DNA of 45,559 nucleotides from Gammaproteobacteria bacterium. Its GTDB lineage: Bacteria; Pseudomonadota; Gammaproteobacteria; Ga0077536. This document shows positions 8,146 to 13,429 of this stretch, in pieces; the stretch's first letter is position 1; each line of letters begins with the position of its first letter. The position numbers and the translations under genes were made by a program. The DNA lies in assembly GCA_030429865.1 (NCBI GenBank), contig JAUIFX010000008.1, positions 1 to 45,559 on the forward strand, read 5' to 3'. The notes beneath the pieces were generated by a model, which saw nothing but the letters and a program-made list of their open reading frames with translations, ran no database searches and was not told the origin of the DNA.

Positions 8146-9117
8146 TCAAACGACGCGATCGCGGACCACGCGGCCGGCGAAGAAGTCGTCGAGGTTGGCC
8201 ATCACGCGCCGTCCCATGGCAATGCGCGTTTCCTCGCTCGCACTGCCGAGGTGCGGCAATAACACCACGTTGTCCATGGTTTTGAGCGCATCGGGCACGG
8301 CCGGCTCGGCTGCGTAGACATCGAGGCCCGCGCCCGCGATCGTGCCGCTCGCGAGCGCTGCGATCAGCGCCTGCTGGTCGACGACGTCGCCGCGCGCGGT
8401 GTTTACGAGGTAACCGTCACGACCAACCAGGGCGAGCCGATCGGCATCGATGAGATGCCGCGTCGCGGCGCCGCCAGGACAATGCAGCGAAACGAAATCC
8501 GCCCGTTCCAATACCTCCTCGACGCTTGCGCAGGGCTCGACCTCGAGCGCGTGTACGACCTCCTGCGGCACCGCGCTGGGGTTGTAATACAGCACGCGCA
8601 TGTCGAAGCCGAAACGCGCCCGGCGGGCAACGGCACGCGCGATGCGGCCGAAGCCGATGAGACCCAGCGTCTTGCCGCTGACGCGCCGGCCGAGCAGCTG
8701 CGTCGGACACCAGCCGGTCCAAGCATCGGCGCGGACCAGGCGTTCGCCCTCGCCGGCACGGCGCGCCACCATCAGGATCAGCATCATCGCGAGATCGGCC
8801 GTGCAATCGGTGAGTACGTCGGGCGTATTGCTGACCGTCAGGCCGGCCGCCCGCGCGGCCTCGAGATCGATGTGATTGAAACCGACACCGAAGTTGCCGA
8901 GAAAGCGCGCACGCGGGCGGGCCGCCCCGATCACCGCCGCCGTGAGGGCATCGGTCACGGTCGGACAGACCGCGTCGGCCGTATCGAGGGCGGCCGTCAA
9001 CGCGCGCGCCGAGAGCGGCTCGTCGCTCGCGTTGGTGAGGAGTTCGTAGCGCTCGGCCAGGGCCGCTTCGACGGCTGCCGGCCAGCGCCGCGTAAGCTGC
9101 ACGCGCGGCCGCTTCAC
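8146..9117 (-). CDS. D-isomer-specific 2-hydroxyacid dehydrogenase, probable glyoxylate/hydroxypyruvate reductase
   Basis: NAD(P)H-dependent reductase of 323 residues, probably turning hydroxypyruvate into D-glycerate and/or glyoxylate into glycolate. The catalytic triad is visible: Arg242 in NTARGDVV, Glu271 in DVYAAEP and His289 in LLPHLGSAS. The cofactor loop reads GFGRIA (155-160), so the third glycine of the usual GxGxxG is alanine. The substrate loop GNFGVGFNHID is typical of the glyoxylate reductase branch. Translation starts at GTG 9117, which overlaps the stop of the aminotransferase gene (GTGA), showing coupled translation. Serine-glyoxylate aminotransferase makes hydroxypyruvate, the expected substrate here, so the pair reads as a two-step unit. 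Alternatives such as phosphoglycerate or formate dehydrogenase are less likely from length and motifs. Confidence 0.88.
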   Translation of the reverse strand: MKRPRVQLTRRWPAAVEAALAERYELLTNASDEPLSARALTAALDTADAVCPTVTDALTAAVIGAARPRARFLGNFGVGFNHIDLEAARAAGLTVSNTPDVLTDCTADLAMMLILMVARRAGEGERLVRADAWTGWCPTQLLGRRVSGKTLGLIGFGRIARAVARRARFGFDMRVLYYNPSAVPQEVVHALEVEPCASVEEVLERADFVSLHCPGGAATRHLIDADRLALVGRDGYLVNTARGDVVDQQALIAALASGTIAGAGLDVYAAEPAVPDALKTMDNVVLLPHLGSASEETRIAMGRRVMANLDDFFAGRVVRDRVV

Positions 9118-10286
9118 GCCGTGCAGGTCTCGCGCAGGAACTCCGACGCGGCGCCGACACCGCTGCCCGGCTCGACCCCGATACCGCTGTCACGCAGGGC
9201 CATTTCGGTACCGGCGAGCGCGCTCAGGATCATGAGTTCGTTGAGGTCGCCCAGGTGCCCGATGCGGAACACCTTGCCCGCGACTTCGCCGAGCCCTCCG
9301 CCGAGCGAGAGGTTGTAGCGCCGGTAGGCGTTGCCGACCACCGCGCCGGCATCGCTCCCTTCCGGCACGAGGATGGCGCTGACGGTGTTCGAATACCACT
9401 TGGGATCGCGCGCGCAGAGTTTCAGCCCCCAGGCCGCGACGGCCTTGCGCACGGCTTCGGCGTAGCGCGCGTGGCGTGCGAACACCTGTGGCAGTCCCTC
9501 TTCGAGCAGCATGTCGAGCGAGGCGCGCAGACCGTGCAGCAAGGTCACGGCCGGCGTGTAGGGAAACCAGCCGTCCGCGTTCATGCGCAGCATGTCGCCG
9601 AAGTCGAAATAGCTGCGCGGGCAGCGCGCGGTCTGCATCGCGTCCAGCGCCTTGCGGCTGGCGCCGACCAGGCCGAGCCCGGTCGGCAACATGAGCCCCT
9701 TCTGCGAACCGCTGACGGCGAGATCGACGCCCCACTCGTCCATGCGGAAGTCGATGCTGCCGATGGCGCTGACACCGTCCACGGCGATCAGCGCGGGGTG
9801 GCCGAGATCGTCCAGCACCCGCCGCACGCCGGCGAGATCGCTGGTCACGCCGGTCGCCGTTTCGTTGTGCGTGACCAGCACCATCTTGATCGCATGCGCG
9901 CTGTCGGCGGCCAGGATTTCGGCATAGCGGTCGAGCGGCACGCCCTCGCCCCACGGCGTCTCGACGAGTTCGACCTGCATGCCGAGGCGCCGGCAGAGCT
10001 CGGCCCACAGGTGGCTGAACTGGCCGAAGCGCGCCTGCAACACCTTGTCGCCGGGTGACAGCGTGTTGGTAATGGCCGCTTCCCAGCCGCCGGTGCCCGA
10101 CGCGGCGAAGATGAACACGTGGCCGTCGCGCGTCTGGAAGACTTTCTTCAGGTCTTCGAGCAGCGGCAGCACGAAAGCCGGGAAGTCGCCCGCGCGATGG
10201 TCTTCGAGCGGCACGTCCATGGCGCGACGGATGCGCTCCGGAATGTTGGTGGGTCCGGGGACGAACAGGAAATTCCTACCAGGCAC
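9114..10286 (-). CDS. sgaA: Serine-glyoxylate aminotransferase (class V)
   Basis: PLP enzyme of 390 residues that transfers the amino group of serine (or alanine) to glyoxylate, yielding glycine and hydroxypyruvate. Diagnostic features are PGPTNIPE near the N-terminus (10-17), AASGTGGWEAA (61-71), the PLP-binding Asp in AVDGVSAIGS (168-177) and the Schiff-base Lys196 in SGSQKGLMLP. These match bacterial serine-glyoxylate aminotransferases of the serine cycle and the closely related alanine-glyoxylate enzymes. The start is GTG 10286 with GGAGAG eight bases upstream. It overlaps the dehydrogenase gene by four bases. A promoter-like pair at 10398-10426 would serve both. Other serine-cycle genes (mtdA, malyl-CoA lyase, malate thiokinase) are not in the window, so a full methylotrophic cycle is not shown. 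Confidence 0.9.
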   Translation of the reverse strand: MPGRNFLFVPGPTNIPERIRRAMDVPLEDHRAGDFPAFVLPLLEDLKKVFQTRDGHVFIFAASGTGGWEAAITNTLSPGDKVLQARFGQFSHLWAELCRRLGMQVELVETPWGEGVPLDRYAEILAADSAHAIKMVLVTHNETATGVTSDLAGVRRVLDDLGHPALIAVDGVSAIGSIDFRMDEWGVDLAVSGSQKGLMLPTGLGLVGASRKALDAMQTARCPRSYFDFGDMLRMNADGWFPYTPAVTLLHGLRASLDMLLEEGLPQVFARHARYAEAVRKAVAAWGLKLCARDPKWYSNTVSAILVPEGSDAGAVVGNAYRRYNLSLGGGLGEVAGKVFRIGHLGDLNELMILSALAGTEMALRDSGIGVEPGSGVGAASEFLRETCTA

Positions 10287-10445: not shown

Positions 10446-11630
10446 TCAGCCGGCGCCGTCCAGTGCCTGCTCGAGATCGGCGAGGAGATCCGCCACGTCT
10501 TCGAGCCCGATCGAGAGCCTGAGCAGGCCCTCGCCGACGCCCATCTCGTCACGCTCAGCCTGGCTGAGGCGGCCGTGCGTGGTCGTCGCCGGGTGCGTGA
10601 CGATGCTCTTGGTATCGCCGAGGTTGGCCGTGATCGAGAAATGGCGCAGGTTGTCCACGACGTGCCAGGCGCGGCGCCGATCGGCCAGCTCGAAACTGAC
10701 GATGCCGCCGAAGCCGCGCTGCTGGCGCGCCGCGAGCTCATGCTGCGGATGGGATTCCAGGCCGGGGTAGTACACGCGACGCACTTGCGGCTGCGTCTCG
10801 AGCCAGCGCGCCACCGTCAGCGCGCTGTGGCTGTGGCGCTCCATGCGCAGCGGTAACGTCTCCAGCCCCTTGAGAAAAACCCAGGCATTGAATGCGCTCA
10901 TGCTCGGGCCCGCGCTGCGCAGGAACGGAAAGACCTTGCCGTCGATGAGTTCGGCCGGACCGACGACGGCGCCACCGAGGCAGCGCCCCTGGCCGTCGAG
11001 GAACTTGGTCGCCGAGTGAATCACGAGGTCGGCGCCGAGTGCCAGCGGACGTTGCAGCGCCGGGGTACAGAAGCAGTTGTCGACGACCAGCCACGCCCCG
11101 CTCTCGCGCGCAAGTCCGGCGAGCATCGCGAGGTCGGCAATCTCGGTCAGCGGATTGGACGGCGTCTCGAGAAAGATCATCCTGGTCGCCGGGGTGATCG
11201 CGCCGCGCCAGGCATCGGCGTCGGTCATGTCGACCAGCGTACTGGTGATGCCGAAACGCGGCAGGATGTTACGGAACAGGGAAACCGACGTGCCGAAGAT
11301 GCTGCGCGAGGCAACCACGTGGTCGCCAGCCGAGAGCAGTGACATGACCAGGCTCAGAATCGCACTCATACCGGAAGCCGTCGCGATTGCGCGCTCGCCG
11401 CCCTCGAGCGCGGCGAGGCGCTGCTCGAAGCCGCGCACCGTGGGATTGGTGAAACGGCTGTAGACGTTGCCCGGTTCGTCGCCGGCGAAGCGCGCGGCGG
11501 CCTGCGCCGCGGACTCGAAACAGAAGCTCGACGTCAGGTACAACGCTTCGCTGTGTTCCATCTCCGCGCCGCGGTACTGCCCGCTACGGCAGGCAATCGT
11601 GGCAAGGCCGGCACTGTCGTGATCGTTCAT
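10446..11630 (-). CDS. metZ: O-succinylhomoserine sulfhydrylase
   Basis: Makes homocysteine directly from O-succinylhomoserine and sulfide, the direct-sulfhydrylation route to methionine, in the cytosol. The 394-residue protein belongs to the Cys/Met-metabolism PLP family: YSRFTNPT (57-64), SGMSAI (86-91), the PLP-binding Asp in VVDNCFCTP and the Schiff-base Lys209 in SATKFLDGQG. The motif FLDGQGRCLGG is typical of MetZ rather than of cystathionine gamma-synthase (MetB). ATG 11630 begins the conserved protein. It follows purF on the same strand, as in Pseudomonas, but has its own strong-looking promoter (11851-11880) and a leader of about 215 bases with apparent secondary structure. Regulation in response to sulfur or methionine status is therefore plausible but unproven. 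Confidence 0.93.
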   Translation of the reverse strand: MNDHDSAGLATIACRSGQYRGAEMEHSEALYLTSSFCFESAAQAAARFAGDEPGNVYSRFTNPTVRGFEQRLAALEGGERAIATASGMSAILSLVMSLLSAGDHVVASRSIFGTSVSLFRNILPRFGITSTLVDMTDADAWRGAITPATRMIFLETPSNPLTEIADLAMLAGLARESGAWLVVDNCFCTPALQRPLALGADLVIHSATKFLDGQGRCLGGAVVGPAELIDGKVFPFLRSAGPSMSAFNAWVFLKGLETLPLRMERHSHSALTVARWLETQPQVRRVYYPGLESHPQHELAARQQRGFGGIVSFELADRRRAWHVVDNLRHFSITANLGDTKSIVTHPATTTHGRLSQAERDEMGVGEGLLRLSIGLEDVADLLADLEQALDGAG

Positions 11631-11721
11631 GGCTGCTCTCCCGAAGGGCTTGCGAAGATATGGTGAGCGGCGAGGCGATCAGCGGGCGGGCACGGCGGGG
11701 AGCCAGCGGGTCGACGGCAGG

Positions 11722-11806
11722 CGGGGAAGCTGCCATGGCAACACGACCCGGGTCAGGTCTGCATCGCTTTAGCAGTTTCTCCGGCAACCTCGTCGTCGAG
11801 TCCCCG
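11722..11806 (-). promoter_or_regulatory. Structured element in the metZ 5' leader (unidentified)
   Basis: Within the predicted metZ leader RNA, a 6-bp outer helix (11801-11806 pairing with 11722-11727, CGGGGA/TCCCCG) encloses two further hairpins. One is a 4-bp stem with a four-base loop (11789-11800). The other is a 4-bp stem with a nine-base loop (11759-11775), followed by ACCTGACCCGGGT. The 8-base palindrome GCCATGGC (11732-11739) lies near the 3' side. The layout, a closed multi-branch structure between a promoter and a biosynthetic gene, resembles riboswitches in general, but I could not assign it to a known class (SAM-I, SAM-II, SAH, TPP, cobalamin, ZTP considered). In such GC-rich DNA some pairing is expected by chance. 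Confidence 0.3.
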
Positions 11807-11850
11807 GTGCGCCCGCAAGCTGATTTCAAATCGGCGCGAATGAGGCGCGC

Positions 11851-11880
11851 ACATTAAGCGCGTCGCGGCATCGCTGTCAA
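11851..11880 (-). promoter_or_regulatory. Candidate sigma-70 promoter of metZ
   Basis: A perfect -35 box TTGACA (11880-11875) is followed after 17 bases by TTAATG (11857-11852), or after 18 bases by TAATGT (11856-11851). It lies 19 bases beyond the purF stop. Transcription would begin near 11844, leaving about 215 bases before the metZ ATG. It is among the closest matches to the consensus in the window. Confidence 0.5.
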
Positions 11881-11899
11881 TGTCGAGCCGGGATCGGCC

Positions 11900-13429
11900 T
11901 CAGGCGTCGCCGGATGCGCTGTTGGCGGCGAAGAGATCGCGCAGCGAGTCCTCACCGTCCTCCCGTGCAGCCTTGGCCTCGTCGTTACGCAGCCGGCTGA
12001 CGCGATCGAGATAGCCGGCGCTGACGTCGCCGGTGACGTACTTGCCGGTGAAGCACGACTCTTCGAACTCCTCGATCGCCGGGTTACCGTGGCGAGCGGC
12101 GTCGGCGAGCGCATCGAGGTCCTGGAAGATCAGACCGTCCGCGCCGATCAGGCGCGCGATCTCGGCTTCGTCGCGGTTGTGCGCGATCAGTTCGTCGCTG
12201 GTCGGCATGTCGATACCGTAGACGTTCGGGTAGCGCACCGGCGGTGCCGCCGAGGCGAAGTAGACCTTCGCCGCGCCGGCTTCGCGCGCCATCTCGATGA
12301 TCTGGCCGGACGTCGTGCCGCGCACGATGGAGTCATCGACCAGCAGCACGTTCTTGCCCTCGAACTCGAGCTCGATGGCGTTGAGTTTCTGGCGCACGGA
12401 TTTTCGCCGCAGGGCCTGTCCCGGCATGATGAAGGTGCGCGGGATGTAGCGGTTCTTGATGAAGCCTTCGCGGTACTTCACGTCCAGCGTGTGCGCGAGC
12501 TCCAGCGCGGCGGTACGCGCGGTGTCCGGGATCGGGATGACGACGTCGATGTCGTGTTCGCGCCACTCGCGCGCGATCTTCTCGGCCAGCGCCTCGCCCA
12601 TGCGCATGCGCGCCTTGTGCACCGAGATGCCGTCGATGATGGAGTCCGGGCGAGCGAAGTAAACGTGCTCGAAGATGCACGGCGCGTGGCGCCGCACCGG
12701 CGCGCATTCGCGCGTGCTGAGTTCGCCGTGCTTGGAGATGAAGATGACTTCGCCGGGCTCGATGTCGCGCATCAGTTCGAAGCCGAGCGCATCGACCGCG
12801 ACCGACTCCGAGGCAACCATGTACTCGTCGCCGTCGGCGGTCTCGCGGCGCCCGAACACGATCGGGCGGATGCCGTACGGATCACGGAACGCGACGATGC
12901 CGACGCCCGTGATCATCGCCACCACCGCGTAGGCGCCCCGGCAGCGTTCGTGCACGCGCGCCACCGCGGCAAAGATGTCCTCGGCGTCGATACGCAGCTT
13001 GCCGAGCCGCTGCAATTCGTGGGCGAACACGTTCAGCAACACCTCGGAATCGGATTCGGTGTTGATGTGCCGGAGTTCGTCCTCGAACAGCTCCTGCTTG
13101 AGCCGCTCGGAATTGGTCAGGTTGCCGTTGTGCGCAAGCGTGATGCCGTAGGGGGAGTTGACGTAGAACGGCTGCGCCTCGGCGTTGGAGGAAACGCCGG
13201 CGGTGGGATAGCGTACGTGCCCGATACCCATGCGCCCACGCAGGTTGAGCATGTGGCGGGTGTGGAACACGTCGCGCACGAGCCCGTTCGACTTGCGCAG
13301 GTTGAGGCGCCCGTCGTCGTAGGTCGCGATACCAGCGGCATCCTGGCCGCGGTGCTGCAGAACGGTGAGCCCGTCGTAGAGCATCTGATTGACCGCCGAA
13401 CGGGCGACGATACCGATGATTCCGCACAC
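11900..13429 (-). CDS. purF: Amidophosphoribosyltransferase (glutamine PRPP amidotransferase)
   Basis: First committed step of purine synthesis: PRPP plus glutamine gives phosphoribosylamine, glutamate and pyrophosphate. The 509-residue length is typical. Translation begins with GTG at 13429, so the mature protein starts at Cys2 (CGIIGIV), the N-terminal nucleophile of the glutaminase domain, with no propeptide. The C-terminal phosphoribosyltransferase domain shows the PRPP loop [14 protein letters not shown] at roughly residues 358-372. AAGGA stands about a dozen bases before the start. It follows cvpA after a 16-base gap, the classic cvpA-purF pair also known in E. coli. I saw no clear PurR-type operator. 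The gene order downstream to metZ agrees with Pseudomonas. Confidence 0.97.

Follow-up and report, generated by a model that had tools for sequence, protein, structure and literature searches.

Strong comparative evidence for a hairpin-bearing SAM-II-type aptamer in the metZ leader of a gammaproteobacterium, a probable SAM-responsive off switch

What kind of element occupies the long leader of metZ in this gammaproteobacterium, and how might it act on the gene? The metZ gene (O-succinylhomoserine sulfhydrylase; NCBIfam NF006003, 659 bits against a cut-off of 522) lies at 10446-11630 on the minus strand of the window, by which we mean the whole 45,559-nt stretch of DNA analysed here. Leader features below are also on the minus strand and are given in RNA order. 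purF lies 5' of metZ on the same strand, with 269 nt between the purF stop and the metZ start. The gene 3' of metZ (9114-10286, minus strand) resembles L-aspartate--glyoxylate aminotransferase BhcA (614 bits against a cut-off of 650), and a hydroxyacid dehydrogenase-like gene at 8146-9117 adjoins it.

A first-pass annotation had described a long structured leader, possibly a riboswitch or other cis-regulatory RNA and perhaps an undescribed one, with no match to SAM-II. The 218-nt leader does fold better than all 200 dinucleotide shuffles (z -3.15), and the features named in that annotation exist on the minus strand where it placed them: a TTGACA hexamer (11880-11875), an outer 6-bp helix of CGGGGA (11806-11801) with UCCCCG (11727-11722), the hairpins CUCG-ACGA-CGAG (11800-11789) and CUGC-UAAAGCGAU-GCAG (11775-11759), and the 8-base palindrome GCCATGGC (11739-11732). 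However, most of these pieces belong to another structure. The minimum-energy fold differs from the one drawn around the outer helix, the first hairpin is really the tip of a longer hairpin within what we take to be a SAM-II-type aptamer, and the second contains the 3' pseudoknot strand of that aptamer, whose most conserved part (11837-11809) had gone unmentioned. The hexamer is a possible -35 element, followed by a weak -10, TTAATG, at 11857-11852; SAM-II leaders would have a near-consensus promoter just 5' of P1, and a strict sigma-70 scan found none here.

A comparison with Rfam, which had been suggested as a check, gave no family over its curated cut-off anywhere in the window. At a permissive threshold four weak matches appeared within 11500-12000. 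One of these was SAM_alpha (SAM-II, RF00521) at 11837-11809 on the same strand as metZ, which scored 14.1 bits against a gathering cut-off of 36, a database cut-off rather than a biological feature. The lowest E value (0.0039) belonged to RF02424, a Burkholderia 'sRNA' family, on the strand opposite the aptamer and also below cut-off, and the matches to isrG (E 5.7) and Pseudomon-Rho (E 5.5) were dismissed as chance level. At E up to 10, SAM-V (RF01826) had no match in 11500-12000 and SAM-II long loops (RF01726) had none in either of the two genomes of the window's genus, and membership of both was rejected on this ground. The latter family (Weinberg 2010) is SAM-II with enlarged loops, a likeness by name, and is listed for Bacteroidetes and marine sequences. 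Because the SAM_alpha score is so far below cut-off, the SAM-II assignment made here rests on homologs and not on Rfam alone.

That the metZ leader opens with a SAM-II-type aptamer (11838-11763) is almost certain from the comparative evidence, which is strong. The parts run in the order 5-bp P1, GAUUUGA, CAGCUUGC and 3' GCUAAAG. The P1 5' strand GCGCC (11837-11833) makes all five pairs with the 3' strand GGCGC (11813-11809); between them lie the third strand GAUUUGA (11832-11826) and the P2 5' strand UUGC (11818-11815). After P1 come an inserted hairpin (11807-11781), an A-rich linker AGAAACU (11780-11774) and the P2 3' strand GCUAAAG (11773-11767). The bases that contact SAM in PMC6061858, transferred to this RNA by position, are kept at UUU 11830-11828, UUGC 11818-11815 and GCUAAA 11773-11768.

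We compared the leader with 58 genomes, among them the one it comes from. The congener G001 matched at 91% over the whole query, with 11840-11809 and 11780-11753 identical and differences in the sequence further downstream. A core of about 30 nt, GCGCCGATTTGA-n-TCAGCTTGCGGGCGC, recurs with small changes in 17 genomes besides G001, always with a short linker and then GCTAAA on its 3' side. All 18 relatives' loci having the core (L008, L014 and L018 included) have a metZ-type gene next. Four more loci with a changed P1 were taken from the RF00521 search, and the 21 short-linker aptamers outside the window's genus formed alignment A1. All the SAM-contacting bases are invariant in A1, where ATTT, TTGC and GCTAAA do not vary. 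P1 covaries, a check likewise named at first pass: ten cells are altered on both sides, seven of them at the outermost pair, a pair that does not form in 6 of the 21 sequences; none of 500 shuffles reaches ten, and slid versions of the helix give at most two. We took the support for P1 from these A1 tests because a larger table of 163 aptamers had been pre-selected for at least four of five pairs. The strands of the pseudoknot helix P2 are complementary in the window and show no variation in A1, hence no covariation signal.

A covariance model built from A1 (R1) matched the P1 half of the aptamer (11837-11809; 38.1 bits, E 8e-9); the GCTAAAGCGA half was a separate match of 14 bits. The window's genome and G001 have one strong copy each. 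In a class-wide sample, R1 matched at E up to 0.01 in 188 of 369 genomes, a sample that includes the window's own and seven training genomes and whose weakest matches look like chance by eye. The core occurs before metZ, metX, metH, metN and metK in beta- and gamma-proteobacteria. Of 163 loci given to a gene tally, the core was recognised in 136, where the following gene, named from crude motifs and with some genomes repeated, was MetZ/MetB-like in 70, MetX in 21, MetN in 11, MetH in 11, MetK in 6, unassigned in 14 and absent in 3. At five loci with a SAM-II-type core before metK (L069, L070, L078, L082 and L086), an SAH riboswitch (RF01057) lies about 1.3 kb downstream on the same strand. A pattern match with four of five P1 pairs in a Phycisphaerae bin (L181:955-1012) precedes a frame that looks ThiF/MoeB-like by eye; the match may be chance. 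The early view of a structured, probably SAM-related leader was right; the statements that it did not match SAM-II and was possibly undescribed were wrong, as the SAM-II core is present and P1 covaries in relatives.

What hid the aptamer from recognition is the hairpin inserted between P1 and GCUAAAG. These two parts are 35 nt apart in the window against about 12 in the short-linker relatives, and the 35-nt linker holds a hairpin, CCGG..CUCG-ACGA-CGAG..CCGG, that starts 1 nt after P1, is followed by AGAAACU and is kept with changes in G001. The linker folds at -13.6 kcal/mol, matched by 1 of 100 shuffles in the window and by 0 of 100 in G001. R1 also matches weakly in seven further families of the class, and there different hairpins occupy this position.

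We scanned the collection for the core followed by a long linker, with no P1 requirement, and obtained at least 119 stretches. The linker-fold, anti-terminator and gene-tally counts used 80 of these (L126-L205), and the other 39 were added for P1 and linker fold. P1 has all five pairs in 77 of the 80 and in 39 of the 39. Among 75 unique linkers (window and G001 included; 6 of 82 loci skipped) the mean z is -2.68, and for 56 no more than 5 of 100 shuffles are as stable; in 71 of the 75 P1 and the start of the hairpin are at most 2 nt apart, and in 69 the hairpin has a tail of 5-14 nt. Per-position base counts in the same linkers give A at position -5 in 72 and C at position -2 in all 75. The 39 loci added later contribute 37 unique linkers, 31 of which pass this shuffle test. 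Single-sequence folds and shuffles were used here because the linkers do not align in register in alignment A2; a consensus P3 from this MAFFT alignment was rejected, as RNAalifold shows no P3 there.

A2 holds 35 hairpin-bearing leaders from 47 eligible loci (linker length 26-37, five removed by hand, the window's genus left out), and the covariance model built from it (R2) gave a single full-length match in the window (57.4 bits, E 6.5e-15), the next best being 10.2 bits. Rfam recovers core-bearing loci poorly: its SAM-II cut-off was passed by 2 of 18, 6 of 20 and 0 of 18 of them in three scanned sets, and RF00521 at E 0.5 was reached in 3 of 11 loci scanned, including 0 of the 7 with long linkers.

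The metZ leader resembles SAM-II (RF00521; Corbino 2005, PMC1273637) in its P1 hairpin, GAUUUG third strand, CUUGC, GCUAAA pseudoknot strand and methionine gene, and differs in its inserted hairpin, in having no intrinsic terminator and in its sub-threshold Rfam score. We call it a variant, 'SAM-II-type', because of the stable hairpin at 11807-11781, while SAM-II is described as lacking a P3 helix (PMC6061858). In the SAM-V crystal structure a P3 stem-loop follows P1 and is succeeded by stacked A residues and then the P2 strand (PMC6061858); the window likewise has a hairpin directly after P1, A residues and then the P2 strand, and so joins the sequence core of SAM-II to a hairpin where SAM-V has P3, although it has no RF01826 match. 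SAM-V acts on translation, with the ribosome site next to P2 (PMC6061858). Many riboswitches tolerate stem-loop insertions (PMC2258182), and the SAM-II figure of Corbino 2005 marks optional insertions. The presence of SAM-II in this lineage is not new, since Corbino 2005 noted the class outside alpha-proteobacteria and PMC2258182 states its occurrence in alpha-, beta- and gamma-proteobacteria.

Overall, the metZ leader very likely carries a SAM-II-type aptamer with an extra hairpin that would switch metZ off, perhaps by SAM-triggered Rho termination. The first 80 nt or so of the metZ mRNA would form the P1 hairpin, the pseudoknot P2 and the extra hairpin ahead of the 3' pseudoknot strand; plentiful S-adenosylmethionine would bind the pseudoknot and hold GCUAAAG, and metZ would be off. 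Judged from sequence, SAM-dependent repression of metZ is highly probable. A riboswitch of the same class controls the same gene in Sinorhizobium meliloti, where high SAM raises a terminated sRNA and lowers metZ mRNA and a Rho-independent terminator is predicted (PMC9373788); the window's metZ leader has none, no terminator-like site being found in 11600-11950.

Two readings would deny SAM this role, and both are very improbable. The RNA could be a SAM-II look-alike sensing another ligand such as SAH or homocysteine, which the extra hairpin and low Rfam score would suit, but the bases that contact SAM in related crystal structures (PMC6061858) are kept, and related cores stand before metK, metN, metH and metX, which suits SAM. 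Hardly more credible is a structured spacer or degenerate riboswitch remnant that is not a switch at all: the missing terminator and poor -10 speak for it, and against it stand the two blocks that are identical in the congener while the sequence further downstream differs.

The off step is harder to assign. A run of at least five T lies within 120 nt in 33 of 44 short-linker and 55 of 84 long-linker leaders; the window and G001 have none. In relatives GCUAAAGC is often complementary to a GCUUUAGC-like sequence in the 5' arm of a downstream terminator, and in those with a U tract intrinsic termination is the probable off step, as GCUAAAGC would otherwise pair with that arm. This anti-terminator pairing falls in the best 5 of 100 shuffles in 20 of 44 short-linker (mean z -1.71) and 15 of 84 long-linker leaders (mean z -0.69), and is no better than shuffles in most. 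Nine loci that the search pattern did not recognise, together with L182, which is cut by the record end, were dropped from the terminator comparison, and its long set contains the short-linker L147 and L204 and some genomes twice.

In the window's genus, where no terminator is present, the bound aptamer would instead leave a C-rich, G-poor stretch open for Rho. This possible Rho-loading site, 11725-11646, has a C-over-G excess of +0.30 over 80 nt, higher than in any 80-nt stretch sampled from the two strands of the window, the leader start having been picked for the highest value and the background sampled every 5 nt. The window ranks first of 128 leaders in this excess, and the 40 leaders with no T run have a larger excess than the 88 with one (p 1.4e-5, uncorrected for kinship and repeated genomes). 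In the unbound RNA the aptamer strand would pair with the C-rich stretch and so occupy it; inspection by eye and the minimum-energy fold both show an alternative helix between UGGCAGCUUC (11735-11726) and GAAACUGCUA (11779-11770). When the P2 3' strand was paired against the 120 nt that follow, the duplex scored -13.0 in the window (4 of 100 shuffles as good) and -13.5 in G001 (7 of 100). In predicted folds, forcing the aptamer raises C openness from 0.43 to 0.60 in the window and from 0.34 to 0.61 in G001. Leaving pseudoknot energy out of account, the forced fold is less favourable than the free one by 29 kcal/mol in the window and 14 in G001.

We favour Rho termination, with the decision taken while the RNA is being transcribed, and on this evidence from composition put its probability at about even. 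The main rival keeps the same aptamer and places control in translation, with bound and free folds differing in how open they leave the metZ ribosome site about 125 nt downstream. The leader has no intrinsic terminator, the predicted fold of its 3' region changes when the aptamer is forced, and the S. meliloti metA SAM-II controls translation at a distance (PMC9373788), all of which suit this rival. Most SAM-II riboswitches, however, are described as transcriptional (PMC6061858), and translational control leaves unexplained the most extreme C-rich stretch of the window, lying between the aptamer and the start codon; we consider it distinctly less than an even chance.

The hairpin-bearing form also bears on two published elements. 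Leyn 2014 (PMC4239095) places SAM_alpha only in two alpha orders and presents as novel, and not as SAM-II, a beta-proteobacterial metXZ element; this leader, found before metX and metZ, contains a pseudoknot and a terminator. R2 recognises the hairpin-bearing SAM-II core in two metX leaders of Paraburkholderia (31.6 and 30.1 bits), and because of this the metXZ element very probably belongs to the hairpin-bearing SAM-II form.

The second is RF02424 (Bp2_287 'sRNA'). Among 18 loci scanned it exceeds its cut-off in all six of the Burkholderia group (L127, L135, L157, L159, L172 and L174), and each of these matches spans the aptamer on the other strand; RF00521 exceeds its cut-off in 0 of the 18. 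The weaker RF02424 match in the window has the same orientation. We rejected its reading as a true antisense sRNA on the plus strand, since the family consensus appears to be the reverse complement of the aptamer and lies opposite it in those six loci. The main text of the source paper does not mention the candidate by number. RF02424 may need re-stranding or merging. Neither this link nor that between metXZ and SAM-II was found stated in the part of the open-licence literature searched.

These results point to a regulator of an ordinary type for metZ, one whose hairpin-bearing form escapes Rfam at this locus, together with a plausible candidate Rho platform. The broader reading, which we hold tentatively and rate a little short of even, is of a widespread beta- and gamma-proteobacterial SAM-II/SAM-V branch whose SAM-II core and SAM-V-like P3 would link both classes, which would include metXZ and have RF02424 as its opposite strand, and in which a Rho-loading site would be opened here in place of an intrinsic terminator. 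The metZ leader, once unassigned, can now be placed with a known type of switch, from which it departs in ways that can be tested. Of the two published elements, the 'novel' metXZ leader is probably SAM-II, and the Rfam 'sRNA' family RF02424 seems to represent the wrong strand. The position of the hairpin offers a structural bridge from SAM-II to SAM-V, and the low rates at which core-bearing loci pass the Rfam cut-off suggest that SAM-II control of methionine genes is under-annotated in beta- and gamma-proteobacteria.
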